In this document: one piece after another, positions 7,275 to 35,788 of the stretch
Numbering within the stretch: position 1 is the first letter of the stretch
How the letters are laid out: each line of letters begins with the position of its first letter
Assembly: GCA_025062235.1 (NCBI GenBank)
Contig: JANXAE010000015.1
Coordinates: 1 to 37,459 of the forward strand
Source of the DNA: Bryobacteraceae bacterium
GTDB lineage: Bacteria > Acidobacteriota > Terriglobia > Bryobacterales > Bryobacteraceae
Reading direction: 5' to 3'
DNA: 37,459 bases
Notes under the pieces: model-generated
The model's input: only the letters and a program-made list of their open reading frames with translations
Told to the model about the DNA's origin: nothing
Database searches by the model: none
Made by a program: the position numbers and the translations under genes

Positions 7275-8582
7275 TCAGGCGGCTTTGCGCAGCCGTGGCG
7301 ATGTCTTGGGCGCCAAGTCACGGAACTCGACGCTGCGGTCCGCCCGCTTGTGCAGCTCAAAGGCGTCGTAAAGGGCGCCGGAGGCAGTGCGGGCCTCGAA
7401 GCGCAAGCGGTCATTCTCGATGCGGATGACTTGGAACAGCTGGGTCTGCTCCGCGGCTCGCTCGAAGGCCTGCGGCCGATCCATCTCGTACATCTTCGCG
7501 CCGCTGACCGAGCTCACGTAGACCGCGCCGGCATGACCCGATGAGGCGGAGCCGAAACGTCGTGGACCGGTCCTTGCGTAGGTATGGTCGTGGCCCTGTA
7601 AGACGAGGTCCACGCCGTGCTTGTCGAAAACCGGTTGCCAGAGCTCGCGCAGCTCCCTGTTGTCGCGGCCGCGCGCGCTCGAATAGATGGGATGGTGGAA
7701 GACCACGACGGTCCAAGCGGCGGGATTGCGTGCCAGCAGGGCATCCAGCCACTCGGCCTGCTCCTTGCGTTTCTCGACCGAATTGAGCACGACCAGCCGC
7801 AACCCCTGGATATCGAGCCAGTAGCAGGTCTCTTCCAGACCGGCTGGGCCGTTGGCGGGAAATGCAAACTGCGGCCGCCAGTTCGGCGTAAGCCGCCGCT
7901 CCCGGGAGCTATACTCGTGATTGCCCGGCGCGGCGAGTACGGGAATCATGCGATGGATGAAGCCGGCTGCGGCGTGGAATTCGCCCCATTGCTCGTCCCG
8001 GTCGTTGTCGTTGATCAGGTCGCCCGCATAGACGATGAACTTGGCTTCCGGGGCGGTCGCGAAGGCTTGCCGGATGACGCGTGCCCAGAGCGAATGGATC
8101 TCGGACTGGACATCTCCCAAGTACAGGAAGGTGAGCGGATCGCCTCTGCCACCCGCGGTTCGGAATTGGTTCCACTCGCTCCAGCGTTTCCCGTCGCCGA
8201 CCCGATAGAGATAGGCGCGCCCGGGCTGGAGGTTGCGGAAAGTCACGCTGTGGCTGTGCGCTGCGCCGGCGTTGGTCTGGTAGCGCTCGGTCGAGGCTTC
8301 GACGCGGCGGGCCTGCTTGGCGACGTCGGGGCTGTCCAGGGCTTCGGCGATTTCGGCGAACCCTCGGCTGACGCTGGCATCGGTCCGCCAGGTGACGGAC
8401 ATGGTCGTCGCCGGGTCTTCCGACCAGGTGAGAATCACGCGGTCGGGAAACGGCCCAGGCGGATAAGCGACTTCGGGCGCCTCTTGGAAGCTGAAGGTGA
8501 CGCCGGCGACAGTCAGGAGCACGGCTATGGCCAGAAGCGGCGACCCGGCCATCGAGAGCGACGCTCGGATTTGTCGTGCCAC
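7275..8582 (-). CDS. Purple acid phosphatase-like metallophosphoesterase with N-terminal fibronectin-III-like domain
   Basis: PDRVILTWSEDPATTMSVTWRTD (PAP N-terminal domain), YLGDVQS, YAGDLINDND, APGNHEY, VVVFHHPIYS, LQGHDHTYART. Start probably the GTG at 8582, preceded by GGAGGG; the ORF track extends to 8675. Confidence 0.88.
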   Translation of the reverse strand: MARQIRASLSMAGSPLLAIAVLLTVAGVTFSFQEAPEVAYPPGPFPDRVILTWSEDPATTMSVTWRTDASVSRGFAEIAEALDSPDVAKQARRVEASTERYQTNAGAAHSHSVTFRNLQPGRAYLYRVGDGKRWSEWNQFRTAGGRGDPLTFLYLGDVQSEIHSLWARVIRQAFATAPEAKFIVYAGDLINDNDRDEQWGEFHAAAGFIHRMIPVLAAPGNHEYSSRERRLTPNWRPQFAFPANGPAGLEETCYWLDIQGLRLVVLNSVEKRKEQAEWLDALLARNPAAWTVVVFHHPIYSSARGRDNRELRELWQPVFDKHGVDLVLQGHDHTYARTGPRRFGSASSGHAGAVYVSSVSGAKMYEMDRPQAFERAAEQTQLFQVIRIENDRLRFEARTASGALYDAFELHKRADRSVEFRDLAPKTSPRLRKAA

Positions 8583-19354: not shown

Positions 19355-19383
19355 TTGACAGGCGGGGGTCGGATTGCTAGACT
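19355..19383 (+). promoter_or_regulatory. Predicted sigma70 promoter TTGACA-N17-TAGACT of the transketolase/kinase operon
   Basis: TTGACA at 19355-19360, 17-bp spacer, TAGACT at 19378-19383; first CDS of a five-gene plus-strand operon follows. Confidence 0.6.
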
Positions 19384-19408: not shown

Positions 19409-19424
19409 CTGCATGAATATGCAA
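19409..19424. promoter_or_regulatory. Palindromic site 1: CTGCATGAATATGCAA
   Basis: TGCAT-N4-ATGCA core shared with three other promoter-proximal sites; 25 bp downstream of the predicted -10 and overlapping the annotated start codon. Confidence 0.75.
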
Positions 19425-20273
19425 CAACTGGCGCGCGTGCCTCCCAGGATCTCCGTCGAGGAATTGCGGCGTCGCGCCTGCGGGATCCGGCGGCGTAGCC
19501 TGCAAATGATCCATCGCGCCGGGTTCGGCCATCCCGGGAGCGATCTTTCCTGCGCCGACATCCTCGCCGTGCTTTACTTCGCGGTGCTCCGCCTCGATCC
19601 CGCCGATCCCCGTCATCCCGGCCGTGACCGTTTCATCCTGAGCAAGGGTCATTCGTCGGCGTCGTATTACGCCACGCTGGCAGCGGCCGGCTTTTTCCCC
19701 GAGCAGGAGCTGGATTCCTATCTCCAGCCGCTTTCGGCGTTCAACGGCCACCCGGACCGCAACAAAGTTCCGGGAGTCGAGGCCAGCACGGGCGCGCTGG
19801 GTCACGGCTTGCCGATTGGCGTTGGGGCGGCGCTGGCGGCGAAAATGGACGGGGCACCCTGGCGGGTCTTCGTGCTGACGGGCGATGGCGAGCTGCAGGA
19901 AGGCAGCAACTGGGAGGCCGCCATGGCTGCCGCGCACCATAGGCTCGACAATCTGGTCCTGATCGTGGACCGCAACCGGCTCCAGCAAGGGGACGCAACC
20001 GAACGAACCGTCCGCTTGGAGCCGCTCGGGGAGAAATTTCGCGCCTTCGGGTGGGGGGTGGCGGAAGTGGACGGCCACGACCACGGGGCGTTGCTGTCGT
20101 TGTTCGAGCGACGACCCCTCCTGGCGGGCCAACCCAGTTGCGTCATCGCGCACACGCTGAAGGGGAAGGGCGTTTCCTTCATGGAGGGCAGGGTCGAGTG
20201 GCACCATGGGCATCTGAGCAGTGAGCAGCTCGCGCAGGCCCTGTTCGAGCTCGGGGAGGCCGGCCTTGACTGA
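19413..20273 (+). CDS. Transketolase, N-terminal (TPP-binding) subunit
   Basis: GFGHPGSDLSCADILAVLYF, RFILSKGHSSASYYATLAAAGFF, TGALGHGLPIGVGAALAAKM, VLTGDGELQEGSNWEAAMAAAHHRLDNLVLIVDRN: split-transketolase N-terminal half with TPP motif. Confidence 0.93.
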   Translation: MNMQQLARVPPRISVEELRRRACGIRRRSLQMIHRAGFGHPGSDLSCADILAVLYFAVLRLDPADPRHPGRDRFILSKGHSSASYYATLAAAGFFPEQELDSYLQPLSAFNGHPDRNKVPGVEASTGALGHGLPIGVGAALAAKMDGAPWRVFVLTGDGELQEGSNWEAAMAAAHHRLDNLVLIVDRNRLQQGDATERTVRLEPLGEKFRAFGWGVAEVDGHDHGALLSLFERRPLLAGQPSCVIAHTLKGKGVSFMEGRVEWHHGHLSSEQLAQALFELGEAGLD

Positions 20274-21237
20274 GCTGTTCGATTGCCGCGGGGCCTTCGC
20301 TGAAGCACTGCTCGAGCTGCTGACCGCAGATCGGGGTGTGGTGGTAGTGACAAACGACTCGGTGGGCTCGTCCAATCTCGCTGGCATCCGGGCGAGGTTC
20401 CCCGAACGCGTGATCAACCTGGGCATCGCCGAGCAGAACATGATCGGGGTGGGGGCGGGGCTGGCCAACGGCGGCAAGATCCCGTTTCTGTGCGGCGCAT
20501 CCTGCTTCCTTACCGGCCGCGCCCTCGAGCAGATCAAAGTGGATCTGGCCTACTCGCGCAGCAACGTCAAGCTCTGCGGGATGTCGGCGGGGCTCGCTTA
20601 TGGCCCGCTGGGCGCCACGCACCACTCGATCGAAGACTTGGCGTGGATGCGCGTGCTCCCCGGGCTCGTCGTGATCGTCCCTGCCGATCCTGCCGAAACC
20701 GCCCAGGCCGTGCGCGCGGCGGCGGCCCTGGAAGGTCCCGTCTATCTCCGGCTGAGTCGCATGCCAGTTCCGCCCGTTCATCCGCCGGACTACGTCTTCC
20801 GCGTGGGGAAGGCCGCCCGTCTGCGCGAGGGCAGCGACCTGACGCTGATCGCCTGCGGGACGATGGTCTCTCGCGCGCTCGCGGCTGCCGAGCTGCTCCG
20901 GGCCGAGGGCCTCTCGGCGCGCGTGTTGAACATGGCGACGATACAGCCGTTGGATTGCGAGGCGGTCGAGTGTGCCGCAAGGGAAACGGGCGCCATCGTC
21001 ACCGTCGAGGAGCACTCGGTGCGAGGCGGGCTGGGTGGGGGAGTGGCCGAAATCGTCGTCAGCTCGAGACCGGTTCCCATGAGGCTACTGGGTGTGCCCG
21101 GCACGTTCGCGCCCACGGGTTCGGCGCAGTTCCTCTTCGAACACTTCGGGCTCACCGCGGATGGGATCGCTCGCGCGGCACTGGATCTGTTGCGCACAAA
21201 GGTGACCGATGCCGGAACGCTTCATCCTTGCCGTTGA
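20266..21237 (+). CDS. Transketolase, C-terminal subunit
   Basis: GIAEQNMIGVGAGLANGGKIPF, MSAGLAYGPLGATHHSIEDLAWMRVLPGLVVIVPADPAE, VTVEEHSVRGGLGGGVAEIV, GVPGTFAPTGSAQFLFEHFGLT. Predicted TTG start at 20266 overlaps the N-terminal subunit stop; the ORF track begins in frame at 20221. Confidence 0.92.
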   Translation: MTELFDCRGAFAEALLELLTADRGVVVVTNDSVGSSNLAGIRARFPERVINLGIAEQNMIGVGAGLANGGKIPFLCGASCFLTGRALEQIKVDLAYSRSNVKLCGMSAGLAYGPLGATHHSIEDLAWMRVLPGLVVIVPADPAETAQAVRAAAALEGPVYLRLSRMPVPPVHPPDYVFRVGKAARLREGSDLTLIACGTMVSRALAAAELLRAEGLSARVLNMATIQPLDCEAVECAARETGAIVTVEEHSVRGGLGGGVAEIVVSSRPVPMRLLGVPGTFAPTGSAQFLFEHFGLTADGIARAALDLLRTKVTDAGTLHPCR

Positions 21238-22735
21238 CCAGGGAACGACGAACACCAAGGCCGTGCTGGTGGACCGGCAGGGCCGGGTCATCGCCCGAGC
21301 GTCGCGGTCCGTGCCCATCCGCTTCCCTCAACCCGGCTGGGTCGAGCAGGACGCCGAGGAATTGTGGCTAAGCGTCGTGGAGACCATCGAGGAGTGCCTC
21401 GAGCAGGCCCCGCCGGGCAGCGCGCCGGCGGCGATAGGGATCAGCAACCAGCGGGAATCCGTAGTGCTCTGGGAACGGCGTACAGGGATTCCGGTGGGGC
21501 CGTGCGTCACCTGGCAGTGCCGACGCTCGGCCCCGATTTGCGAGGAACTGCGCAGCCGCGCTCTGGATTCGCTGGTGCGCGAGCGCACGGGTCTGGCCTT
21601 GGATCCGCTGTTCTCGGCGGGGAAGATCCGGTGGCTGCTGGACAACGTGTGGGAGGGGCAGAGAAGAGCGGAAGCGGGCGAGCTTTGCGCGGGGACCGTG
21701 GACAGTTGGCTGTTGTGGAAGCTGACCGGTGGCGCCGCGCACGCCTGCGACGCCAGCAACGGCTCGCGCACGCAATTGCTGGACGTGCGGAGCGGGGTGT
21801 GGGACGAGCAGCTGCTGGAGCTATTCGGTGTGCCGCGCGCGCTGTTGCCCGAGGTGCTACCTTCAAGCGGTGTTGCCGGCGAATCGGTGAAGCTCGGGCG
21901 GTTGCCCGCTGGCGTACCAGTGGGTGCGTTGATCGGCGACTCGCATGCGGCCCTCTTCGGCCACGCGGCCTTCGGGCCCGGGGCGGTCAAGGCGACCTAC
22001 GGTACAGGCACTTCCTTGATGACGTTGACCGAGCGCCCGGTGTTCTCGGCCGGGGGGCTATCCACGACCATCGCGTGGCGGATCGGCACGGTCGTCGCTC
22101 ACGCGCTCGAGGGGAACATCCTGGTGACGGGAAGTGCGGTGCAGTGGTTAGGCGAATTCCTGGGGCTGGCCGATCCTGCCCACGATGTCGCAGGCCTGGC
22201 CGAGCGCGCCGAGCCGGCGGAAGGGCTCTACGTGGTGCCAGCCTTCGTCGGGTTAGGGGCACCGCACTGGGACGCGCAAGCTCGGGGCCTGATCTGCGGC
22301 CTGACCCGGGGCACCACGGCGGCGCAGGTCGCGCGGGCGACGCTCGAAGCCATCGCCTATCAGGTGCGCGATGTCTTCGAGGTGATGGAAATGGAGGCCG
22401 GGCAATCGCTGCCGGAGTTGATGACCGACGGCGGCGCCAGCCGGAACGATTCGCTCATGCAGTTCCAGGCCGACGTGCTCGGGCGCCCTGTGGTGCGGAA
22501 CCTCTCCACGGATCTCTCGGCCGTCGGCGCCGCCTGGCTGGCGGGATTGGCGGTTGGGTTCTGGCGCTCGCTCGAGGAGCTGGAAGCCCTACCCCGCCAG
22601 GAAGACCGTTTCGAGCCGCGGATGAGCGAGAGCGAGCGCATCCGCCGGATCGAGGGTTGGCGCGAAGCCGTGGCGCGGGCGCGTCTGCATTTGCCGCGAG
22701 GTGCTCAGGTTTCCGGAGGCCAGCCGCGGACTTAG
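21209..22735 (+). CDS. FGGY-family carbohydrate kinase (glycerol-kinase-like)
   Basis: ILAVDQGTTNTKAVLVD, PGWVEQDAEELW, AIGISNQRESVVLWER, GDSHAALFG, YVVPAFVGLGAPHWDAQARGLICGLTRGTT, DGGASRNDSLMQFQADVLG, AVGAAWLAGLAVGFW. Confidence 0.92.
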   Translation: MPERFILAVDQGTTNTKAVLVDRQGRVIARASRSVPIRFPQPGWVEQDAEELWLSVVETIEECLEQAPPGSAPAAIGISNQRESVVLWERRTGIPVGPCVTWQCRRSAPICEELRSRALDSLVRERTGLALDPLFSAGKIRWLLDNVWEGQRRAEAGELCAGTVDSWLLWKLTGGAAHACDASNGSRTQLLDVRSGVWDEQLLELFGVPRALLPEVLPSSGVAGESVKLGRLPAGVPVGALIGDSHAALFGHAAFGPGAVKATYGTGTSLMTLTERPVFSAGGLSTTIAWRIGTVVAHALEGNILVTGSAVQWLGEFLGLADPAHDVAGLAERAEPAEGLYVVPAFVGLGAPHWDAQARGLICGLTRGTTAAQVARATLEAIAYQVRDVFEVMEMEAGQSLPELMTDGGASRNDSLMQFQADVLGRPVVRNLSTDLSAVGAAWLAGLAVGFWRSLEELEALPRQEDRFEPRMSESERIRRIEGWREAVARARLHLPRGAQVSGGQPRT

Positions 22736-22747
22736 AATCGTAGGCAT

Positions 22748-23767
22748 ATGTCGCGGCTGGACGAATTGCGACTGATGGTCAAAGTGGCGCGCATGTACTA
22801 CCAGCAGGGGCTCACCCAGAACGAGATCATGGACCGGCTGCACATCCATCAGTCCACGGTTTCGCGCCTGCTCAAGCGCGCCGAACGCGAGGGCATCGTG
22901 CGGGTGGTCATCAGCGTTCCCACGGGGATCCACGCCGAGTTGGAGGAAGCCTTGCAGTCGGCGTACGGACTCAAAGACGCCGTGGTCGTGGACAGCGGCG
23001 AGGACGAGGACCAGATCGTGCGGGATCTGGGCGCGGCGGCGGCTTTCGTACTGGAGAACACGTTGAAGCCGGGCGAAGTGATCGGGATCTCCTGCTGGAG
23101 CGCGGCGCTGCTGGCCATGGTGGACGCGATGCACCCCACGGCGAAGGCGCCCGGATCGCGGGTCGTGCAGATCCTCGGGGGCGTGGGCAGTCCGGGAGCG
23201 CCCACACATGCCACCATCATGACGCGGCGGCTGGCGGGCTTGATCGGGGCCGAAATCACGCCCTTGCCCGCCCCGGGAGTGGTCGGCTCGCCGCAGGCGC
23301 GGCGGGTGCTCATGCAGGATCCATTCGTGCAAGAGGCGGTGCGCTGGTTCCGATCGCTCACGCTGGCGCTGGTCGGGATCGGATCGGTCGAGCCTTCGAA
23401 GATGCTGGCGGCCAGCGGCAATGTCTTCTCCAACGAAGAATTGAAGCTTCTGGCAAGCAAGGGCGCCGTGGGCGACATCTGCCTGCGTTTCTTCGACGCC
23501 GCGGGCCGCCCAGTGAACACGCCCCTGAACGAACGCGTCATCAGCATCGAGCTGGAGCAATTGCGGCGGGTGCCGCGGGTGATCGGCGTGGCGGGCGGCA
23601 GGCGCAAGCTCTCCGCGATACGTGGGGCCCTTGCGGGCAAGTGGATCAACGTTCTGATTACCGACCGCGGCACCGCAGAGCGCTTGCTGGAGGACCGGTC
23701 GGCGGTCCTGCCGGCAGCGGCTTCGGGCGCGGCCGCGAAACGCCGCAAGGCCGGAGGTCGGAACTGA
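22748..23767 (+). CDS. SorC/DeoR-type sugar-binding transcriptional regulator
   Basis: N-terminal HTH YYQQGLTQNEIMDRLHIHQSTVSRLLKRAEREGIVRVVI; sugar-binding domain VIGISCWSAALLAMVDAM, VQILGGVGSP, LALVGIGSVEPSKMLAASGNV, GAVGDICLRFFDAAGRPV. Confidence 0.93.
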   Translation: MSRLDELRLMVKVARMYYQQGLTQNEIMDRLHIHQSTVSRLLKRAEREGIVRVVISVPTGIHAELEEALQSAYGLKDAVVVDSGEDEDQIVRDLGAAAAFVLENTLKPGEVIGISCWSAALLAMVDAMHPTAKAPGSRVVQILGGVGSPGAPTHATIMTRRLAGLIGAEITPLPAPGVVGSPQARRVLMQDPFVQEAVRWFRSLTLALVGIGSVEPSKMLAASGNVFSNEELKLLASKGAVGDICLRFFDAAGRPVNTPLNERVISIELEQLRRVPRVIGVAGGRRKLSAIRGALAGKWINVLITDRGTAERLLEDRSAVLPAAASGAAAKRRKAGGRN

Positions 23768-23797
23768 TGTCGAAACCGCGGTGAGGAGGAACAGGAC

Positions 23798-25222
23798 ATG
23801 GCGATGACCATCGGCGTCATCATCGGCAATCGCGACTTTTTCCCCGACCGCCTGGTCAGCGAGGCGCGGCGCGACGTGCTGGCGCTCTTCGGGCAGATGG
23901 GCGTCGAGCCCGTCATGCTGGAGGAGAACGAAACCAAGCTGGGCTCGGTCGAGACGTGGGAGCACGCCAAGCGTTGTGCGGAGCTCTTCCGGGCGCACCG
24001 CGAGCGCATTGACGGCGTGCTGGTGACGCTGCCCAATTTCGGCGACGAGAAGGCAGTGGCCGAGACGCTGAAGCTTTCCGGGCTCGAGGTCCCGGTGCTC
24101 GTGCAGGCCTACCCCGACGATCTCGGACAGCTCGGCGTCGAGCGGCGCCGCGACGCCTTCTGCGGGAAGATCTCCGTGTGCAACAACCTCCGGCAATACG
24201 GGATTCCCTACACCCTCACCACCCTGCACACGGACCGGATCCTGAGCGACAGCTTCCGGACGGATCTGGCCGATTTCCTCGCGGTGTGTCGCGTCGTGCG
24301 CGGGTTGCGCAAGGCGCGCATCGGGGCAGTCGGCGCCCGTCCCGGCGCCTTCAACACGACACGCTACAGCGAGAAGCTGCTGCAGGCCGCCGGCATCAGC
24401 GTGAGCACCCTGGACCTCTCCGAGGTCCTGGCAGAGGCCGCACGCGTCAGCGACGACGACCCGCGCCTGCGCGCCAAGCTGGAGGAAATCCGGGCTTACG
24501 CGGACGCGTCCGGGGTCCCGCTGGAAGCGTTGACGCGCATGGGGAAGCTGGCCGTGGTGCTCGAAGATTGGATGGCGCGCAACGACCTGGACGCTACCGC
24601 GCTACAGTGCTGGAGCTCTCTGCAGAAGAATTACGGCGTCAACTGCTGCACGGTGATGAGCATGATGAGCGAGAGGCTGCTGCCCAGCGCCTGCGAGGTA
24701 GACGTCACCGGAGCCCTCTCGATGTACGCCCTCCAGCTCGCTTCCGGCCGGCCCAGCGCCCTGGTGGACTGGAACAATAACTACGGCGGTGAACAGGACA
24801 AGTGCGTGCTGTTCCACTGCGGCAACTGGGCGAAAAGCTACCTGCCTGATGCGACCATCGGGACCGCGCCCATTCTCGGCACCACCCTCGGCGAGCAGAA
24901 CACCTATGGCGCCCTGGCGGGCCGCACGCCGGCGGGCCCCGTGACTTTCGCACGCATCAGTACCGACGATGGCGCGGGGCGGATCCGCGCCTACGTCGCG
25001 CAAGGCCGCCTGACGGACGATCCGTTGACGACTTTCGGTAGCCGGGCCGTCGCCGAGGTACCCCGCTTGCAGCGCCTGTTACGCCACATCTGCAGGCAGG
25101 GCTTCGAGCACCACGTCGCCGTCAATCTCTCCGAGTGCGCCCGAGCGCTGGCCGAGGCGTTCCGGACTTACCTCGGGTGGCCGACCTACTGGCACGAAGG
25201 CGAGGACGGGCTTCAGGGGTAG
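23798..25222 (+). CDS. L-fucose/L-arabinose isomerase family protein
   Basis: [149 protein letters not shown] upstream of the ATG. Confidence 0.87.
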
Positions 25223-26610: not shown

Positions 26611-27956
26611 CGCTCGACCCCTCTCGCATGCGCAGGCGCGCCCTGCAACCGCCGCAGGCGCGCCGCGAAATCTCCCAGGAACTGCTCCCGCCAGCGGCTC
26701 ACGTGTCGGGCGCCGGCGTGAACGCCCTCGGCAGCGGCGGGATCCTGGTCGTCGGTCCACCAGTTCGGGTGGCGGCGTGAGACTTGCCGGATCCGTTCCG
26801 GCGAAGGGGGCTTCGCGGTGAAAGCACCCCGCCAGCCTCGCAGGCGGGGATCGTCGCACTCCATCACATAGGTCCAGACCTTCGCATCGCGGGGCGCAAA
26901 CCGGAAACGCAACCGCCGGCCATCGTGGAAGACGGCGACAGGGACGCGGCCGTCGAAAACGACGCGCGCCTTCAGCTCGCGGCCGACTCCCGCGGGCGCG
27001 GGCAGCGCGAACTCGACCACGCCGAAAACCTCGACCTCGTCGGCTTCCGTAGTGAGGCGCTCGAAGAGCCGGTTGCGCCCCTCCCACGCGCGGACGAACT
27101 TGCCACCCCAGCCCGGCTGCGAGGGATCTTCCGGCGTCCCGCGCAACAGATAGGCCACCGAGGGACTGTCGCCCATTTTCAGCCTTCCGCCGAGCAGCGG
27201 CGTGAAGAAAGCACCCAAGTGGCCGCGCCCCGCAACGTGCGCGCCTACAAAGGCCTCGTTTCCCCATTCGCCCTCTTGGTTGCCGCCGACGAACCACCCG
27301 CGGTAGGTGGAGTTGGCTTCGATCATCCACAGGTTCGGATGTTGGCGCTCGATGTATGCGTAGGCGTTGACGCCCCACATCTTGTTGGGGCCCCCGATGA
27401 AATATACGCGGAGCCTGGGCAGGATGTCGGGGGCGTCGTGCAGAGCTTGCGCGAGGTCCTCCGGGCCGCCCCAGACCAACACCCAGAGGGGTCTCGGATC
27501 GGGCCGCCGGGCGCATTCGACGATCCACCGCGAACCTTCGGTGGGCAGGCCGACGCCCTCCCAACCCGCGGCCTCCAAGGCGCCTTGTTTGGCGATCGAA
27601 CGCAGGTACGGCGGCGTCGGGTAGCGGTGCGAGTGGGCGCGCAGCCGGGGATAATCACGCTCGTAGCGTTCGATCACCTCAAGGATGTGCTCCTTGCGCC
27701 CCGGTCCGTAAGGCGAAGAGATCAGGCCTTCCAGATCGAGGACATCGGCATAGAGCAACAGATGGACCATGGATTGGAAGTCGTCCGGATCGGTGCCGCC
27801 GATGTCCGTAGAGACGATTACGCGCGGCCGCTCGCCCGCCAGCGCGCCGCGCGCGGGCAAGGTCTGGGCGTCAGAGACGGCTGCGGCGAGCGCGACCAGG
27901 GCGAGAGCCGCCTGGATGCGCCGCTCCCGCGGCTCAGAATTGCAGGCGCAAGGCAT
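26607..27956 (-). CDS. DUF1593 (nucleoside-hydrolase-like) secreted protein, copy A
   Basis: [102 protein letters not shown]. Overlaps the 3' end of the upstream TonB receptor gene by about 23 bp. Confidence 0.88.
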
Positions 27957-30900
27957 ATTGCAAGCGCCGGCCGAAGTGACCGGCTGCGTGGGCGTTGGTC
28001 TTGCCGAAGTCGGAGGCCGTGATGCTGGTCGTCGGATTGGCCCAGTTCATGTTGTTGAGGGCGTTGTAAGCTTCCAGGCGAAACTCCAGCTTCAAGTGCT
28101 CGCGCAGGGCGAAGCTCTTGCTGAGCACGGCATCCAGATTCAGGAAGCTGGGTCCGGTCAAGTCGTCGTACTGCCACGGGTTCGTCCGGCGAGTGTAAGC
28201 GGGCAGCCGGTTGAAGCCCGTTATGTCGAACCAGTAAGCGCCCGCTCCCACGCCGCCCAGTTTCCGGACGGTGGCGGGGGCTACCATGGCTCCGAAACGT
28301 AGCAACTGGCCCGAGCGATAGGTGAAAACCCCAGCCAGCTGCCAGCCGCCCAAGGCAGCGTCGAGCGCGCGAGGCATGCCGCTACCCAGCGCGCGTCCCC
28401 TGCCGACCGGAAGCTGCACGGTGCCGGCGGCCACCACGCGATGCCGGGGAGCGACCTCGCGCAGCCAGGTCAACCTGACGTCGTACTGATCCTGCTCGTC
28501 ATAGAAGACCATGGACTTCTCGAGGTTGTTGGCGTAGGAGGCCACGAAAGAGAATCCCTGCCGAAACGCACGCTGCAACCGGAGCTGGAAGGAGTGATTG
28601 CGGTATTTGCCGAGATCGGTAAATGTCTGGGTAATGGTCCCGTAGTGCGGATAGGGCTTGAGCAAGGCCGAAACGGCTACCTGCGCCTGGCGGCGCAACG
28701 CGCCGGGGAAGATCTCCACGGTTCCGTAGTTATAGAAGGGATTGGCCACCGTGCGGGTGAGCTCGACGCCGTACTTGTAACTGAGCCGCGGATCCATCAT
28801 GTTGAGGTTCAAACTGAGAAGGTCGCGGCTTACGAAGTTGACGAAGTAAGTGACCTCGGCGACCGTCCGCCACCAGATTTCGCGCTGGAGGGTGAGGTTT
28901 AAGCGATCACTGATGGGCGGCCTCCGCTGGTACTTGGAGATTGTGACGTTATCGCCGAGGTTCGTGTAGCGCCCGTAGCTCTTGCCGTAAGCGGGCGTGA
29001 GCCCCTGAGGGAAGGGGTTGCTCAGGAAGGCCTGCGGCACGCCCTCGAGCAGGGGCAAGACCTCGCTGATGGGGCTGAAGGCGGCCAGGTTCATCTGACC
29101 CAGCGGTTCGTTGCCGCTGTCCGTGAGGGAGTTGGGTGTGTAGAAGCGCCCGTAGCCCACGCGCAACGCCATGGCGTCGTTGAGGCGGTACGCCAGGCCG
29201 ATGCGCGGCATGAACTGCAACTTGTCGCTTTCGGTCGCCCGCTTCCGGCCTTTCTCGGTGAAGTAAAAGGCGCCGTTGTAAAGGTAACTCTTCTGGCCGG
29301 CGGACTCGGCCATTCTGGCTTTGATCTCGGCCGGGATCTTCGGATCAATGGCGGCTTGCAATCCGGGGATGGGATCGGTCAGATCCAGGCGCTGGGGCAA
29401 GCGATAGAGCGGATCCCAGTAGCCGCCTTCGTACTCGTAACGCAGTCCCAAGTTGAGCGAGAGCTTTCGGCTCACCTTGTAGTCATCCTGGACATAGAAG
29501 GCCCACATTTCCGTGTGGGCGTATTGGATGGGCACATACTGGGCGTTGGAGGCGGACGGATCCATAGCGCCCAGCAGGAAGCTGGCCCAGGGATGACCCG
29601 TGCGGACGTTGGCGCCGGCGGTGGTGTCGGCAGTGTTGTTGAAATTGAAGGTCAGATTGGCCAGACCTCCGAAGCGGGCGGCCCAGCCGCGCTTGAAGCG
29701 CGATTCGGCGCCGAACTTCAGCGAGTGGGCTGCCAGATACCTGTTCAGCAGACCGCTGACGCTGTAGCCGAGCGGTTCCTGCCACCAGAAGTTGCGAACC
29801 CCGAAGGTATCGCTGGTGGGCGCCACCTGGATGTTGGGGAAGTAAAGCAGAGGACGGCCCTGCGCGTAAGGCTTCCACCAGCCGCTGGGCCACAGGTCGC
29901 TCCATCCCTGCTCGCCGATGTCCATTTCGGGGTAGTAGCGCTTGTCCTCGGTCTTGTAATAGGCGGCGCGAACGGTCAGGATGCTGGACGGCGAGATGGT
30001 GAAGACCGTGTCGCCGGCGAAGTTGGTCCCGTGACGGATGGAGCCTTCAGTGCGGCGCATCTTGAGGACGTCCGCTCCGTTGGTGTAGTCGTTGGCGTCC
30101 TGGTTGGTGCGGAAGATACTGGCGCGGGCGAACGCCTTCCAGCGATCATTGATCTGCCAGTCCACGCGGTTGGACAGGTTGTAATAGCGGTAGGTCCGGG
30201 TAAAGTCGTATTTGTAGTTGTTCAGCCCGGTCAGGTCATCGCCCGGGTTGTTCGGCTCCCACAGGTGCTTGAGGATCTTCGCAGCCAGGGGATCCCAGCG
30301 CTGGGGGGCGATGCGGTTGCCGGGGAAGGGATCCCGCACGACGCGCCCGCCGGAGATGCGGGAGGTGAGGGGGTCGTAGATGACGCGCTGGCGGCCGTCG
30401 GTGTAGACGGAAGCCGAGAAGTCACCCTGGCGTTCGAGCGCGGTGGGCAGGGTGTAGGCCATGGCGGAAAAGGAAGCGTCGTTCTGGCGCTCGAAGGCGC
30501 TGAACAAGAAAAGCTTGTTCTTCTTGATGGGCATGCCGAGGGTGGCGCCGCCGTTCCAGAAGGTGTTGCGCGAATGCTGGCGGGTGATGCGGTTGCTGAC
30601 CGCGTTCCAGTCAGGATCGCCTCCGAAGTAGTAAGCGGTGCCGTGCACCTCGTTGGTGCCCGATTTCATGGAGATGGTGATGACACCGCCTGCGCTGTGC
30701 CCGAACTCGGCGTCCACGGCGTTCTTTTGCAGAGTGTATTCGTCCACCGCCTCCACGGGCGGGTTGTAGCCGAGCTTGGCCGAGTTGGCCAGCGGGGAGC
30801 CGTCTATGAGCACCTCGTTGCGCCCCATGGTGCGCCCGCCGAGATCGTAGGCGTTGGCTGCGTAGTGGTCGTAGTTGGCGTTGCGCGTCCAGTCGCCGTT

Positions 30901-31389
30901 GACCGAAGGGTCGAGCGCCGCCAGCGTGGCGGGATTGCGGGTGACCAGTGGCAGCTCGCGGAACAGCGAGGCCTCCACGCTGAGCGTGTGGCTGGCGGTG
31001 TTGAACTGGACGGCGACCGGCGCTTCGGCCTGCACGGTGACCGATTCCACGACGTCGGCGACGCGCAGGGTGATGTCCACGGTCACGTCGTCCCGCTGGC
31101 GGACGTGCACGTTTTTCTGAATGACGGTACTGAAGCCGGGATGCTTGACGGTGAGGCTGTACGTGCCGGGATCCACGCGATCGAACAGGTAACGACCGGA
31201 TTCCGTCGTCTGGCGCGTCAGTGAAATGCCTGTGGCGTCATTGGTGAGGGTGACGGTGACGCCGGCCACAGCGCCGCCGCTCGGGTCGAGGATGACACCC
31301 TGGACGCGGCCGCGGGTATCCTGCGCGAACCCCATGCGGGAGGCCGCCAGGCACAGGCAAGCGGTGGCGACGATCTGCCACAGTTTCAT
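27934..31389 (-). CDS. Oar-like TonB-dependent receptor (receptor 1 of the palindrome regulon)
   Basis: MKLWQIVATACLCLAASRMGFAQDTRGRVQGVILDPSGGAVAGVTVTLTN; VDEYTLQKNAVDAEFGHSAGGVITISMKSGTNEVHGTAYYFGGD; C-terminal LRLQF. GGAGGTTCGTTCCC-ATG at 31389. Confidence 0.93.
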   Translation of the reverse strand: MKLWQIVATACLCLAASRMGFAQDTRGRVQGVILDPSGGAVAGVTVTLTNDATGISLTRQTTESGRYLFDRVDPGTYSLTVKHPGFSTVIQKNVHVRQRDDVTVDITLRVADVVESVTVQAEAPVAVQFNTASHTLSVEASLFRELPLVTRNPATLAALDPSVNGDWTRNANYDHYAANAYDLGGRTMGRNEVLIDGSPLANSAKLGYNPPVEAVDEYTLQKNAVDAEFGHSAGGVITISMKSGTNEVHGTAYYFGGDPDWNAVSNRITRQHSRNTFWNGGATLGMPIKKNKLFLFSAFERQNDASFSAMAYTLPTALERQGDFSASVYTDGRQRVIYDPLTSRISGGRVVRDPFPGNRIAPQRWDPLAAKILKHLWEPNNPGDDLTGLNNYKYDFTRTYRYYNLSNRVDWQINDRWKAFARASIFRTNQDANDYTNGADVLKMRRTEGSIRHGTNFAGDTVFTISPSSILTVRAAYYKTEDKRYYPEMDIGEQGWSDLWPSGWWKPYAQGRPLLYFPNIQVAPTSDTFGVRNFWWQEPLGYSVSGLLNRYLAAHSLKFGAESRFKRGWAARFGGLANLTFNFNNTADTTAGANVRTGHPWASFLLGAMDPSASNAQYVPIQYAHTEMWAFYVQDDYKVSRKLSLNLGLRYEYEGGYWDPLYRLPQRLDLTDPIPGLQAAIDPKIPAEIKARMAESAGQKSYLYNGAFYFTEKGRKRATESDKLQFMPRIGLAYRLNDAMALRVGYGRFYTPNSLTDSGNEPLGQMNLAAFSPISEVLPLLEGVPQAFLSNPFPQGLTPAYGKSYGRYTNLGDNVTISKYQRRPPISDRLNLTLQREIWWRTVAEVTYFVNFVSRDLLSLNLNMMDPRLSYKYGVELTRTVANPFYNYGTVEIFPGALRRQAQVAVSALLKPYPHYGTITQTFTDLGKYRNHSFQLRLQRAFRQGFSFVASYANNLEKSMVFYDEQDQYDVRLTWLREVAPRHRVVAAGTVQLPVGRGRALGSGMPRALDAALGGWQLAGVFTYRSGQLLRFGAMVAPATVRKLGGVGAGAYWFDITGFNRLPAYTRRTNPWQYDDLTGPSFLNLDAVLSKSFALREHLKLEFRLEAYNALNNMNWANPTTSITASDFGKTNAHAAGHFGRRLQYALRLQF

Positions 31390-31451: not shown

Positions 31452-31480
31452 ATTCTACCACGGGTCCCGGCCCGGGTCAA
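31452..31480 (-). promoter_or_regulatory. Predicted sigma70 promoter TTGACC-N17-TAGAAT of receptor 1 / DUF1593 operon
   Basis: Minus strand: TTGACC (31480-31475), 17-bp spacer, TAGAAT (31457-31452); about 60 bp upstream of the ATG. Confidence 0.65.
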
Positions 31481-31494
31481 GCGATAACTCGATA

Positions 31495-31510
31495 CTGCAT
31501 ATTTATGCAA
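31495..31510. promoter_or_regulatory. Palindromic site 2: CTGCATATTTATGCAA
   Basis: TGCAT-N4-ATGCA core; 14 bp upstream of the -35 and 37 bp upstream of the -10 of receptor 1. Confidence 0.8.
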
Positions 31511-31591
31511 CTCCCGCGCCCCGTCGCCCCGCGCACCGGGACCGCCCCGCTGCGCCCCGGCCCGGGGCCAGCGGCCCGCCCATTCCGGCCG

Positions 31592-34549
31592 TCAGAAACT
31601 CAGCCGCGCGTTGAACTGGATCAGGCGGGCTCCCCGGGTGGACGTGAACCGCCCGAAGTTGGCGGCGTTGATGCTGGTCGAGATCCCCGAGAAGTTGGTG
31701 TGATTGAGCGCGTTGAACAGGTCGCCTCGCACCTGCAGCCGCCAGCGCTCCCGGAAGTGGAAATTCTTCGCCAGCGCCAGGTCCAGATTCCAGTAGCCGG
31801 GGGCGCGGAGAGCGTTGCGCCCGATGTTGCCGGGGCGGATCGGCGCGCCGCCTCCTCCGATGGGCACGAGCGCGAAAGCGCTGCGGTTCAGGTACTGCAG
31901 CGTGCGCTCGGGGTCGGGCGTGTAAGCTGGCCCACCCAGATAATCGGGCCGGCTGCTTTCGTAAGTGGTGCTCTGCGTGATGTTGATGGCGGGACCGGTT
32001 TCGGCCGTGAAGATCCCCGAGACCTGCCAGCCGCCAAGCAGCCCGCGCGCCCGGCCCGTGCGCCGTCCGGAGAGCCGGGCCAGGGGCAGTTCATAGAGGA
32101 AGTCGGTATGAAAGTGGTGCCGGATGTCGAAAGGACTGGGACCTTTGTCGGCGCGCGTGTTCCAGGTGTCCTGCGGCGGGTTGGGGAGGCCGAGATTGGC
32201 TGCGTTCGTGTAGGAAATGGTATTGGCCCAGGTGTAGACGGCGCCCATCTGAAGGCCGGAGGCGAAGCGGCGGCGGAAGGTGTTCTGCCAGGCGTTGTAG
32301 CGGACGCTTTCGCTGGCTTCGTAGTAGCGGAACTCCGAGTACTCGGGGAACGGTCGCAAGCCGGTGATGCGGTCCACCTGGTTGATCTTGCGCACGATGT
32401 TGGCGTGCACAGCGTGGTTGCCCACGTAAGCGCTTTCCAGGGACATCTCAGGCGTGATCTGCCGGGCCACGCTCAGGGTCCATTGCAGACTGTAGGGCTG
32501 CGGGAAGTCGCGCGAAATCACCGTTCCGGAAATGGGCCCGCCGCCACCCTTCACCAGGGGTAAGACCGCCGCGTTGCTGGTCGGGTAGACGATGCCGTAG
32601 CGTTGGGCTTCCAATTGGCTGAAGACTACGCGGTTCGGCTCATCCAGCGCATTCTGCACCAGCTCCACGGGGCCGCCGAAGTGGTTGTGCGAGCTGGTGA
32701 ACTTGCCGAAGCCGCCCCGCACGATCCACTTCGAAGTGGCCGACCAGGCGAAGCCGAAGCGGGGCGAGAAATCGAAGTAGTTGGCGTCCCAGATGCTGTC
32801 GGGATCGGTGAATGGGCCGATGCCGAAAGGTCCCGTGCGGTTGAAGAGGCGCTTGCTCTTCTCCTTGGGAACGGAGAAGTAATCGTAGCGCAAGCCCAGA
32901 TTGAGGATCAGGCGGCCGGTTATCCGGAAGTCGTCCTGGAGGAAGCCGCCGAGCACCCAGTTGTAGAGCGTGTACGGACGGACGCCGAAGCTGATGGTGA
33001 CCTGGGTGGGACGGTTGGCGAGCAGATCGGCCACGGTGGCGAAGCGGAACTCAGGCACGGTCTCGTTGTTGCGGCCCGAGGAGTACTTCTGGTAAAGGGC
33101 GCCGTACTTGATGGAGTGTCGGCCGCGGTGCATGGCGATCACTTCTTCGAGGCTGAAGTTGGTTCCCAGGTTCTCCATCAGCTCTCCGGAGTTGCTGAAG
33201 CCCAGGTTGCCGACGATCGCGCTGACCCCGAGCGAGTAGATGTGATCGAGACGGACGCGTTCGAACCGGTTGTAGCCGTAGCGGGTCTCGGCGCTCCAGG
33301 CGGCCGAGGAGTGGGTGTAGTTGACAACGCCCTTCTTGGTCTTGACATCGAAGGTGCGCGGGTTGGCGGGCGAAACGCGCGGAGTGAACTGGAAAGGCCA
33401 GTCCTGCGTGAAACGGACGGCGAGCAGGTCGGTGTCGGTCAGGTAGTAGTCGCCGCGCACGCTGTAGTGATCGCTATCCTCCTTGCTGGAAGCAGCGCTC
33501 TGGTAGAAACCGGTCACGGCGCCGGGCGCGTAGGGCGTGTTGGGTAGGGGGAAGGTGTCGAAGAAGGCCCTGGTGGCGGGAACCGCGGCGACGACCATGT
33601 CGCGGAATTCCTTGGTGGGCACGTTGCCGCTCACCAGCGCGAAGGCGCGCGAGCGATATCCTTCGTAGACGCCGAAGAAGAACAGCTTGTTGCGCAAGAT
33701 GGGACCGCCGAGGGAGCCGCCGAACTGGTTGAAGGTGAGCGGTGCGCGAGAGGTCAGGAACTGATTGCGGGCGGCGACGTTTTCCACTCGATTGTTCTCG
33801 AACAACGATCCATGGAACTCGTTGGTACCGCTCTTGGTGATCACGTTGACGTTGCCGGACATGGTGGGCCCGGTCTCGGCGGGGGCGATGCCGCTGACCA
33901 CGGAAACTTCGTGGATGGCTTCGAGGCTGACGGCCTTGATGTAGCCGAGCGAGGTGAGCGTTTCCGATTCGCCGCTGCCACTGGCATTGGCGCCGTCCAC
34001 AGTGAAGCGGAATCCATCCGGGGGCAGCCCGTTCATCGCCACCGCGTTGTTGCTGACCACCAGTCCCGCGCCCAGTTGCAGCAGCACGGTCCAGTCGCGG
34101 TTCAGGGTCGGCAGCTCTTGGATGCGCAGGCTCGCGACCAGGTGATCCTGCTGTGCGCTGGCCGTGTTGACGACCGGGGTCTCCGCCGAGACGGTGACGC
34201 TCTCGGCAAGTTCGCCCAGCTCCAAAGCGAAGCGCAAGCGCAGGCGCTGGCCTGCCACCAGCTCGAGGTCGGTGGTGCGCTTTTCCTTGAAACCCGGCGC
34301 GCGGACCACGACGGTGTAACGTCCGGGCGGCAGGAAGGTGAGAGTGAACTCGCCGGCGGCGTCGGCCACGGTGTTCCAGACGCCGCCGGTCTGCTGGTTG
34401 GTGGCGGCGATTTGGGCGTGCGCCACCGAAGCGCCGGTCGGATCCGTGACCGCACCGAACACCGTCGCGGTGTTGACCTGCGCGGCTGCGGGGAAGGCCA
34501 GCAGGACGCCGACCACGACGGCGGGAGAACTGCGAAGCGGACCGTACAT
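31592..34549 (-). CDS. Oar-like TonB-dependent receptor (receptor 2 of the palindrome regulon)
   Basis: MYGPLRSSPAVVVGVLLAFPAAAQVNTATVFGAVTDPTGASVAHAQIAATN; EVSVVSGIAPAETGPTMSGNVNVITKSGTNEFHGSLFENNRVEN; C-terminal FNARLSF. GGAGGTGGAAC-ATG at 34549. Confidence 0.92.
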   Translation of the reverse strand: MYGPLRSSPAVVVGVLLAFPAAAQVNTATVFGAVTDPTGASVAHAQIAATNQQTGGVWNTVADAAGEFTLTFLPPGRYTVVVRAPGFKEKRTTDLELVAGQRLRLRFALELGELAESVTVSAETPVVNTASAQQDHLVASLRIQELPTLNRDWTVLLQLGAGLVVSNNAVAMNGLPPDGFRFTVDGANASGSGESETLTSLGYIKAVSLEAIHEVSVVSGIAPAETGPTMSGNVNVITKSGTNEFHGSLFENNRVENVAARNQFLTSRAPLTFNQFGGSLGGPILRNKLFFFGVYEGYRSRAFALVSGNVPTKEFRDMVVAAVPATRAFFDTFPLPNTPYAPGAVTGFYQSAASSKEDSDHYSVRGDYYLTDTDLLAVRFTQDWPFQFTPRVSPANPRTFDVKTKKGVVNYTHSSAAWSAETRYGYNRFERVRLDHIYSLGVSAIVGNLGFSNSGELMENLGTNFSLEEVIAMHRGRHSIKYGALYQKYSSGRNNETVPEFRFATVADLLANRPTQVTISFGVRPYTLYNWVLGGFLQDDFRITGRLILNLGLRYDYFSVPKEKSKRLFNRTGPFGIGPFTDPDSIWDANYFDFSPRFGFAWSATSKWIVRGGFGKFTSSHNHFGGPVELVQNALDEPNRVVFSQLEAQRYGIVYPTSNAAVLPLVKGGGGPISGTVISRDFPQPYSLQWTLSVARQITPEMSLESAYVGNHAVHANIVRKINQVDRITGLRPFPEYSEFRYYEASESVRYNAWQNTFRRRFASGLQMGAVYTWANTISYTNAANLGLPNPPQDTWNTRADKGPSPFDIRHHFHTDFLYELPLARLSGRRTGRARGLLGGWQVSGIFTAETGPAINITQSTTYESSRPDYLGGPAYTPDPERTLQYLNRSAFALVPIGGGGAPIRPGNIGRNALRAPGYWNLDLALAKNFHFRERWRLQVRGDLFNALNHTNFSGISTSINAANFGRFTSTRGARLIQFNARLSF

Positions 34550-34617
34550 GTTCCACCTCCCGGAGCGGGCCGCAGATCGCTCGGCGCGGAGGCGCCGCCG
34601 CACCCGCTCACGGCAGC

Positions 34618-34647
34618 ATGCTAGCACGGCAGGGCAGGGCGGGGCAA
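34618..34647 (-). promoter_or_regulatory. Predicted promoter TTGCCC-N18-TAGCAT of receptor 2
   Basis: Minus strand: TTGCCC (34647-34642), 18-bp spacer, TAGCAT (34623-34618). Weaker match, supported by the same operator-to-(-10) distance as receptor 1. Confidence 0.45.
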
Positions 34648-34660
34648 GAACGAATTAGGC

Positions 34661-34676
34661 TTGCATAAAAATGCAA
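34661..34676. promoter_or_regulatory. Palindromic site 3: TTGCATAAAAATGCAA
   Basis: Palindromic arms TTGCAT/ATGCAA; 37 bp upstream of the predicted -10 of receptor 2. Confidence 0.82.
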
Positions 34677-34688
34677 AAAGCCCTCCTC

Positions 34689-35705
34689 TCAGGCGTTCGA
34701 GTATGTGATCAACGCCAGGCCCGCCAGGTAACAGGAGAACATCCAGGCCAGCAAGCGGTTCGTCCCGCCGGGCGCCTGGGCGAATTCTTTCCAGACGAGA
34801 ACACCCCACAGAATGGCGACCACTGGCGCGGCGTTGCTCAGCGCGTACGACACGGCTGGGCCCGCCGCGCCGACGGCCAGGAAGCTCGAGGTCAAACCCA
34901 GACCCCAGATCGCGCCTCCGGCCAGCCCCACCAGATGCGTCCTGGCATCGCCACGCCAGTACTGCGCCATCCGAACGGGCGGCCCCTCCACTGGCCTGCG
35001 CATGAAAAAGGGGTTGAACAGGAACGTGGTGAGGAACGCGCCGAGCGCGAAGAAAAAGGCGGCCGTCAGCGGCATCAGATCTCCCGTGCCGCCGGAGACG
35101 AACAGCGGATCAATGGCCTTGACGACCAGCCCGTAGAAGAACGCGATCAGCAACCCGGCCCCTATCGAGAGCAGGATGCCTTGTGCGCTGGTCTTCTTGA
35201 CGGCGCCGGCCAGGCGCCGGTAAGCGGCCATGCTGAGCAGAATCGCCGCTACGATCACGGCGACGCCGGCAAAAAGGACGAGGGGCTTCTTCTGGGGCGC
35301 TCCTTTGCCCAGGAGCATCAGGACGTAGTTGAAGAGGATGCCCAACACCCAGGCGATGCCACCCCCGATGGGGAAGCCTACCGCCATGCCCGCCACCGCG
35401 ATGGCAGCGACCAGCAGCAGGTTGCCTAGATTCCACACCGCGCCACCCAGCAGCGCGTAGAAGATGCTTCCGGCGCTAGCATTTCGCAGGTCCTCCATGA
35501 AGGGCCGGCCGAGCGGGCCGAAGCTACCCAGCGTGGCAGCCGAGATCGCCGACAGCAGCAACAGACCGGTGACGAAATCCCAGTAGTAGAGCTCGAACCG
35601 CCAGGCGCGTGCAACCAGTTTCTGAGTGTTGGCCCACGATCCCCAGCAGATCATGGTAAGGACGCACAGCAGCACGGCGAGGGCGTAGTTGTCCACGTGA
35701 ACCAT
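34689..35705 (-). CDS. GRP/DMT-superfamily sugar (or ureide-like) permease, about 10 TM
   Basis: ALAVLLCVLTMICWGSWANTQKLV, YALLGGAVWNLGNLLLVAAIAVAGMAVGFPIGGGIAWVLGILFNYVL, LAGGAIWGLGLTSSFLAVGAAGPAVSYALSNAAPVVAILWGVLVWKEF. GGAGG before the ATG at 35705. Confidence 0.85.
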   Translation of the reverse strand: MVHVDNYALAVLLCVLTMICWGSWANTQKLVARAWRFELYYWDFVTGLLLLSAISAATLGSFGPLGRPFMEDLRNASAGSIFYALLGGAVWNLGNLLLVAAIAVAGMAVGFPIGGGIAWVLGILFNYVLMLLGKGAPQKKPLVLFAGVAVIVAAILLSMAAYRRLAGAVKKTSAQGILLSIGAGLLIAFFYGLVVKAIDPLFVSGGTGDLMPLTAAFFFALGAFLTTFLFNPFFMRRPVEGPPVRMAQYWRGDARTHLVGLAGGAIWGLGLTSSFLAVGAAGPAVSYALSNAAPVVAILWGVLVWKEFAQAPGGTNRLLAWMFSCYLAGLALITYSNA

Positions 35706-35721
35706 GGGGCCTCCACGACCG

Positions 35722-35737
35722 TTGCATTTTTATGCAA
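35722..35737. promoter_or_regulatory. Palindromic site 4: TTGCATTTTTATGCAA
   Basis: Palindromic arms TTGCAT/ATGCAA; between the predicted permease promoter and its start codon, 22 bp downstream of the -10. Confidence 0.82.
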
Positions 35738-35759: not shown

Positions 35760-35788
35760 CTTATATCGCGGCGACCGGCGGCTGTCAA
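35760..35788 (-). promoter_or_regulatory. Predicted sigma70 promoter TTGACA-N17-TATAAG of the permease gene
   Basis: Minus strand: TTGACA (35788-35783), 17-bp spacer, TATAAG (35765-35760). Confidence 0.68.

Follow-up and report, generated by a model that had tools for sequence, protein, structure and literature searches.

A putative SorC/DeoR-type regulon linking two TonB-dependent receptors, a sugar permease and a transketolase operon in a Bryobacteraceae bacterium, with co-repression as the favoured account

The stretch of DNA analysed here (the window, 37,459 nucleotides) comes from a Bryobacteraceae bacterium that we take to be a soil acidobacterium. It carries on the plus strand a catabolic operon (19413-25222) encoding a split transketolase (tktN and tktC), a glycerol-kinase-like FGGY kinase, a SorC-type regulator and an isomerase with an L-fucose-isomerase C domain. 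The isomerase has a weak NCBIfam match to sulfoquinovose isomerase, and a search by sequence returned no PDB relative for it. Across Acidobacteriota and Chloroflexota the operon and the regulator are widely conserved together; the open literature searched held nothing useful on D-apiose/apulose transketolase pathways or on SorC-transketolase regulons. On the minus strand lie two Oar-like TonB-dependent receptors recognized by Pfam, receptor 1 (27934-31389; OMP_b-brl_4 and CarboxypepD_reg) and receptor 2 (31592-34549; orthologues at 68-72%), followed by a RhaT/ureide-permease-like sugar permease (34689-35705).

The fourth gene of the operon (22748-23767, plus strand) encodes a SorC/DeoR-family sugar-binding transcriptional regulator. 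Its C-terminal sugar-binding domain (Pfam Sugar-bind PF04198, E=1e-69) and N-terminal HTH have the layout of the subfamily, at about 315-340 aa, and the protein aligns over its full length with SorC of K. pneumoniae (2w48) and DeoR of B. subtilis (8r7y, E=3e-50). Four palindromes of the form TTGCATWWWWATGCAA are present in the window. For the pattern TGCATWWWWATGCA with up to 2 mismatches, 4 sites were observed against 0.17 expected by chance, and the draft genome (3.2 Mb, 81% complete), scanned by pattern rather than by weight matrix, holds TTGCATNNNNATGCAA with up to 1 mismatch at these four places only, at most ~16 kb apart. In another genome (G065) the core palindrome is matched with one mismatch at 45 positions, mostly as TGCACAAAAATGCA, scattered genome-wide; these look like a separate repeat or the site of another regulator.

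We compared 80 loci carrying relatives of the regulator; a further search at the order level added no new genomes. Many loci of both Acidobacteriota and Chloroflexota show the arrangement tktN-tktC-kinase-sorC, and a matching palindrome precedes the operon in most of the Acidobacteriota loci examined. The Chloroflexota version, found at many loci, is TTGAATWWWWATTCAA, a near-match to the operator palindrome of B. subtilis DeoR, TTGAACAAAATTTCAA (PMC11229326). The subfamily is marked by a palindromic operator of the TTGAA-N6-TTCAA type adjoining the regulator's own operon, and both TTGCATWWWWATGCAA in Acidobacteriota and TTGAATWWWWATTCAA in Chloroflexota are of this type. Across genomes of the family, the AT-centred core palindrome occurs in 7/20 with the regulator vs 12/217 without it (Fisher p = 3e-4). 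Because the same operon is preceded by the same motif in relatives, the four palindromes are almost certainly operators of the regulator encoded at 22748-23767, and the proposal of the preliminary description that one factor acts at all four units is supported by the shared palindrome together with this comparative link. In one relative (G126, locus L173) a good operator-like site, ATGCATGTTTATGCGG, lies at the receptor 2 orthologue; no regulator orthologue was found in that genome.

Each of the four operators accompanies a predicted promoter, from which the transcription starts used here are likewise predicted. The promoter of the transketolase operon (TTGACA-17-TAGACT, 19355-19383, plus strand; -35 TTGACA at 19355-19360, -10 TAGACT at 19378-19383) has its operator at 19409-19424, 25 bp downstream of the -10 and overlapping the start codon. 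That of the permease (TTGACA-17-TATAAG, 35760-35788, minus strand; -35 TTGACA at 35783-35788, -10 TATAAG at 35760-35765) has its operator at 35722-35737, 22 bp below the -10, and a weak tandem half-operator lies next to it towards the promoter. At the receptors, both on the minus strand, the operator lies above the promoter. Receptor 1 (TTGACC-17-TAGAAT, 31452-31480; -35 TTGACC at 31475-31480, -10 TAGAAT at 31452-31457) has a lone palindrome, TTGCATAAATATGCAG, at 31495-31510, centred at about -57.5, and receptor 2 (TTGCCC-18-TAGCAT, 34618-34647; -35 TTGCCC at 34642-34647, -10 TAGCAT at 34618-34623) has the lone palindrome TTGCATTTTTATGCAA at 34661-34676. Re-read to the base, operator edge and -10 are 37 bp apart at both receptors (31458-31494 and 34624-34660), with unequal -35/-10 spacers of 17 and 18 bp and operator-to-(-35) linkers of 14 and 13 bp, respectively. 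The equal receptor gap, the unequal spacers and the blocking position of the two catabolic operators had all been described previously, and the exact coordinates were reproduced.

The receptor 1 promoter scored 14.8, vs 15.4 for that of the transketolase operon, and its score was reached by 0/2000 dinucleotide shuffles. The receptor 2 promoter, which has a weak -35, scored 9.3, a value reached by 0.3% of 2000 shuffles; none of the 2000 had a promoter this strong at exactly 37 bp. We also looked for alternative promoters that would place the receptor operators below a -10, and in the interval from 80 bp above the sites to 100 bp below them none scored ≥8. The start codon of the transketolase falls within the right half-site of its operator (ATGCAA, Met-Gln at 19419), and the same overlap (start offset 10) is seen in several relatives, implying a short leader; repression could possibly be coupled with translation start.

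A sister species of the same genus (G010, contig C39, locus L123; 79% DNA identity) allowed us to examine which of these distances are kept. The transketolase and permease promoters are conserved, with gaps of 25 and 22 bp as in the window, the permease gap being the same at a further locus (L031). Receptor 1 retains its promoter as TTGACA-17-TAGCCT, and its upstream operator again lies 37 bp from the -10. Only 5/14 positions of the linker between operator and -35 are identical in the two species, and therefore its length has been kept and its sequence has not; the receptor spacing reported earlier is thus conserved across an unrelated linker. What is more, the sister has another operator at receptor 1, located 24 bp below the -10 and 83 bp from the upstream one. 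Receptor 2 has been deleted in the sister and its operator is gone. Read by eye, C39 at about 8320-8480 holds what looks like a leftover of the N-terminus of receptor 2, lying between the permease and receptor 1.

The loss of receptor 2 together with its operator, and a geometry that varies among relatives so that sites come and go, would be expected if the upstream sites were relics with no effect on the receptors. We consider this quite improbable, as the window receptor sites come close to perfect, scoring 25.9 and 26.9 out of 29.0 bits in a weight matrix built from 22 Acidobacteriota sites, and the distance at receptor 1 was held while the linker turned over.

Downstream and upstream sites also differ in their surroundings. 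On average the downstream sites have a second, degenerate palindrome 18 bp promoter-ward (z = 7.8 in Acidobacteriota, 7.4 in Chloroflexota), an average signal that is absent at several single sites, including the downstream site of sister receptor 1 and the site at L128. Such tandem palindromes would fit a tetramer on two half-operators, as described for DeoR and CggR (PMC11229326). No second palindrome was found at 18 bp from any of the three upstream sites, neither at the two window receptors nor at sister receptor 1: when a partner was sought at ±18 bp of the two window receptor sites, the best scores were at or near background. Nor was a convincing downstream operator, even a degenerate one, found within 300 bp at either window receptor.

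In other relatives the operator mostly lies below the promoter. With the same weight matrix, predicted sites at transketolase promoters are found 12 bp (eight loci), 17 bp or 22-28 bp below the predicted -10, the exceptions being a few loci without a promoter call or with an additional upstream site, and permease sites lie 22 bp below the -10 in 3/3 cases. Receptor sites in relatives take the same position, 22-30 bp below the -10 (22 at L032, 24 at L039, 23 at L128, and also L035). This includes orthologues of the window receptors. In the receptor 1 orthologue of G064 (69% identity) the operator lies 24 bp below the -10 of TTGACG-17-TAACAG, a promoter read by eye for which the scorer made no call, and the receptor 2 orthologue of G051 (67% identity) has its operator 30 bp below the -10. 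At the receptor 2 orthologues of G126 and G012 there are sites but no promoter could be called, and at four other receptor 2 orthologues no operator site was found.

Five promoters have a palindrome on either side, at distances between centres of 83 bp for sister receptor 1, 127 bp for a receptor at L030, 73 bp for L041, 77 bp for L067 and 63 bp for L085. At L041 and L067 it is the transketolase promoter that is flanked, with gaps of 27 and 29 bp upstream and 24 and 26 bp downstream, and therefore the upstream position is not specific to receptors. Outside the window genus the upstream gaps (four cases) range from 26 to 29 bp, shorter than 37 by about one helical turn. The distances between flanking pairs are near whole turns in 4/5 cases at 10.5 bp per turn and in 2-3/5 at 10.3, 10.4 or 10.6; the helical phasing is therefore suggestive only, depending as it does on the number of bp per turn assumed.

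The upstream sites at catabolic promoters, together with the blocking sites at orthologous receptors, make co-repression the simplest account, and we lean slightly towards the view that all four units are co-repressed by the SorC/DeoR-type regulator as one local regulon. Without a sugar-derived inducer the regulator, a tetramer by family precedent, would repress all four units, and the inducer would relieve repression so that the enzymes are induced along with the receptors and the permease. Bound to a bipartite operator immediately below the start site, the regulator would stop polymerase from escaping or elongating at the transketolase operon and the permease. Each receptor would have a single dimer on its lone palindrome at about -57.5, which corresponds to the upstream half of the operator that relatives split between the two sides of a promoter; from above the -35 this dimer would impede polymerase, possibly together with a distant partner site. 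The adjacency of all four sites in the draft genome to the regulator's operon favours this account, as does the operator in blocking position at sister receptor 1. Against it, the repressing half of the relatives' split operator is missing at the window receptors and receptor 2 has a poor -35, a frequent feature of activator-dependent promoters. An activator touching polymerase would also account for a lone strong palindrome held at an exact distance.

The preliminary description had read the -57 position as close to the geometry of an activator and proposed that the receptors may be activated and the catabolic genes repressed. The regulator would then be a position-dependent dual regulator, which represses from downstream sites and activates the receptors from -57.5 by contact with RNA polymerase, either in the ligand-free state (the receptors being kept on as sentinels) or as a ligand-bound dimer that would remain on the lone palindromes. 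The 37 bp fixed in three promoters with unrelated linkers, the lone receptor palindromes with neither tandem partner nor blocking site in the window, and the weak -35 of receptor 2 all speak for it, and there are precedents in CcpA (PMC3463425) and in the SorC-family activator CitI (PMC10798043). An upstream site at fixed helical phase, such as class-I activation calls for, is present here (37 bp in three promoters and about one turn closer in relatives), but a repressor is placed in the same way: B. subtilis DeoR represses from -60 to -21, with its palindrome, like the receptor sites, on the upstream side of the -35 (PMC11229326), and so a location near -57 is not by itself proof of activation. 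A dual regulator would, moreover, require a change of sign between the window receptors and the orthologous receptors of other genera, in which the operator is in blocking position; sister receptor 1 has a site in both positions, transketolase promoters of relatives share the upstream one, and receptor 1 already has a good promoter. The proposed split is thus not sustained by the relatives, and we regard a dual regulator as doubtful.

A kindred reading, which we judge unlikely, has a single SorC-family regulator put the two architectures to opposite uses, tandem half-operators below the promoter repressing the enzymes and permease inducibly and lone upstream palindromes, on a fixed face of the DNA, activating the receptors. 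If true, it would mean a two-stage response, uptake then catabolism, and a switch that evolved within one genus as the operator of one and the same receptor gene moved from below to above the promoter.

Repression could, on the other hand, involve a loop, with a tetramer joining the lone receptor operators to each other or to the permease operator, which lies 1061 bp from the receptor 2 site. SorC-family proteins bind two half-operators as dimers of dimers (PMC11229326), and the paired palindromes around promoters of relatives, mostly near whole turns apart, speak for such a loop. We nevertheless hold it very improbable: the helical match was found after the fact and hinges on the assumed 10.5 bp, the window offers no nearby partner, and the literature examined contained no loops of >1 kb for the SorC family.

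Among the closest known systems is B. subtilis DeoR at the dra-nupC-pdp operator, a full-length homologue of the same SorC/DeoR subfamily with a 16-bp palindrome whose TTGAA/TTCAA half-sites are like those of the Chloroflexota version (PMC11229326). The DeoR operator is two-part (PMC11229326), whereas a second half-site is not visible at the window receptors. By our arithmetic its palindrome is centred at about -51.5, against -57.5 at the receptors, with the direct repeat below the -35 and 22 bp away; most operators here lie below the -10 and have their partner at 18 bp. The transketolase and permease sites resemble those of B. subtilis CggR, a SorC-family repressor with tandem palindromes at +32 to +77 downstream of the start (PMC11229326), although CggR belongs to another SorC subfamily with a different DNA-binding domain and operator sequence, and the tandem spacing here is 18 bp with one copy degenerate. 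CitI of lactic acid bacteria is likewise of the SorC family and controls its own catabolic cluster from two operators, but it is an activator whose ligand raises its DNA affinity (PMC10798043), a property of which the window gives no sign. The logic of the preliminary description is that of CcpA, which activates from upstream of the -35 and represses from over or below the start (PMC3463425). CcpA, however, is a global regulator of the unrelated LacI family, and lev, one of its targets, is repressed from upstream all the same.

To our knowledge no operator has been described for Oar-type TonB receptors in Acidobacteriota, and a literature search for a regulon of such receptors in this phylum returned nothing relevant. 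The locus appears to hold a new regulon of a known kind; its regulator, operator sequence and targets can all be named from sequence, and the comparative support is strong. The parts worth experiment are the tandem as opposed to promoter-flanking half-operators and the shift of the operator between orthologous receptors; with the operator above or below the promoter according to genus, these receptors offer a natural test of whether position sets sign in the SorC family. Divergent promoters are seen at L033 (4779) and L133 (7413/7547), where a hydrolase-like gene (nh1) or receptor 1 faces the transketolase; each promoter has its own downstream operator, and the operators are 118 and 134 bp apart, respectively.
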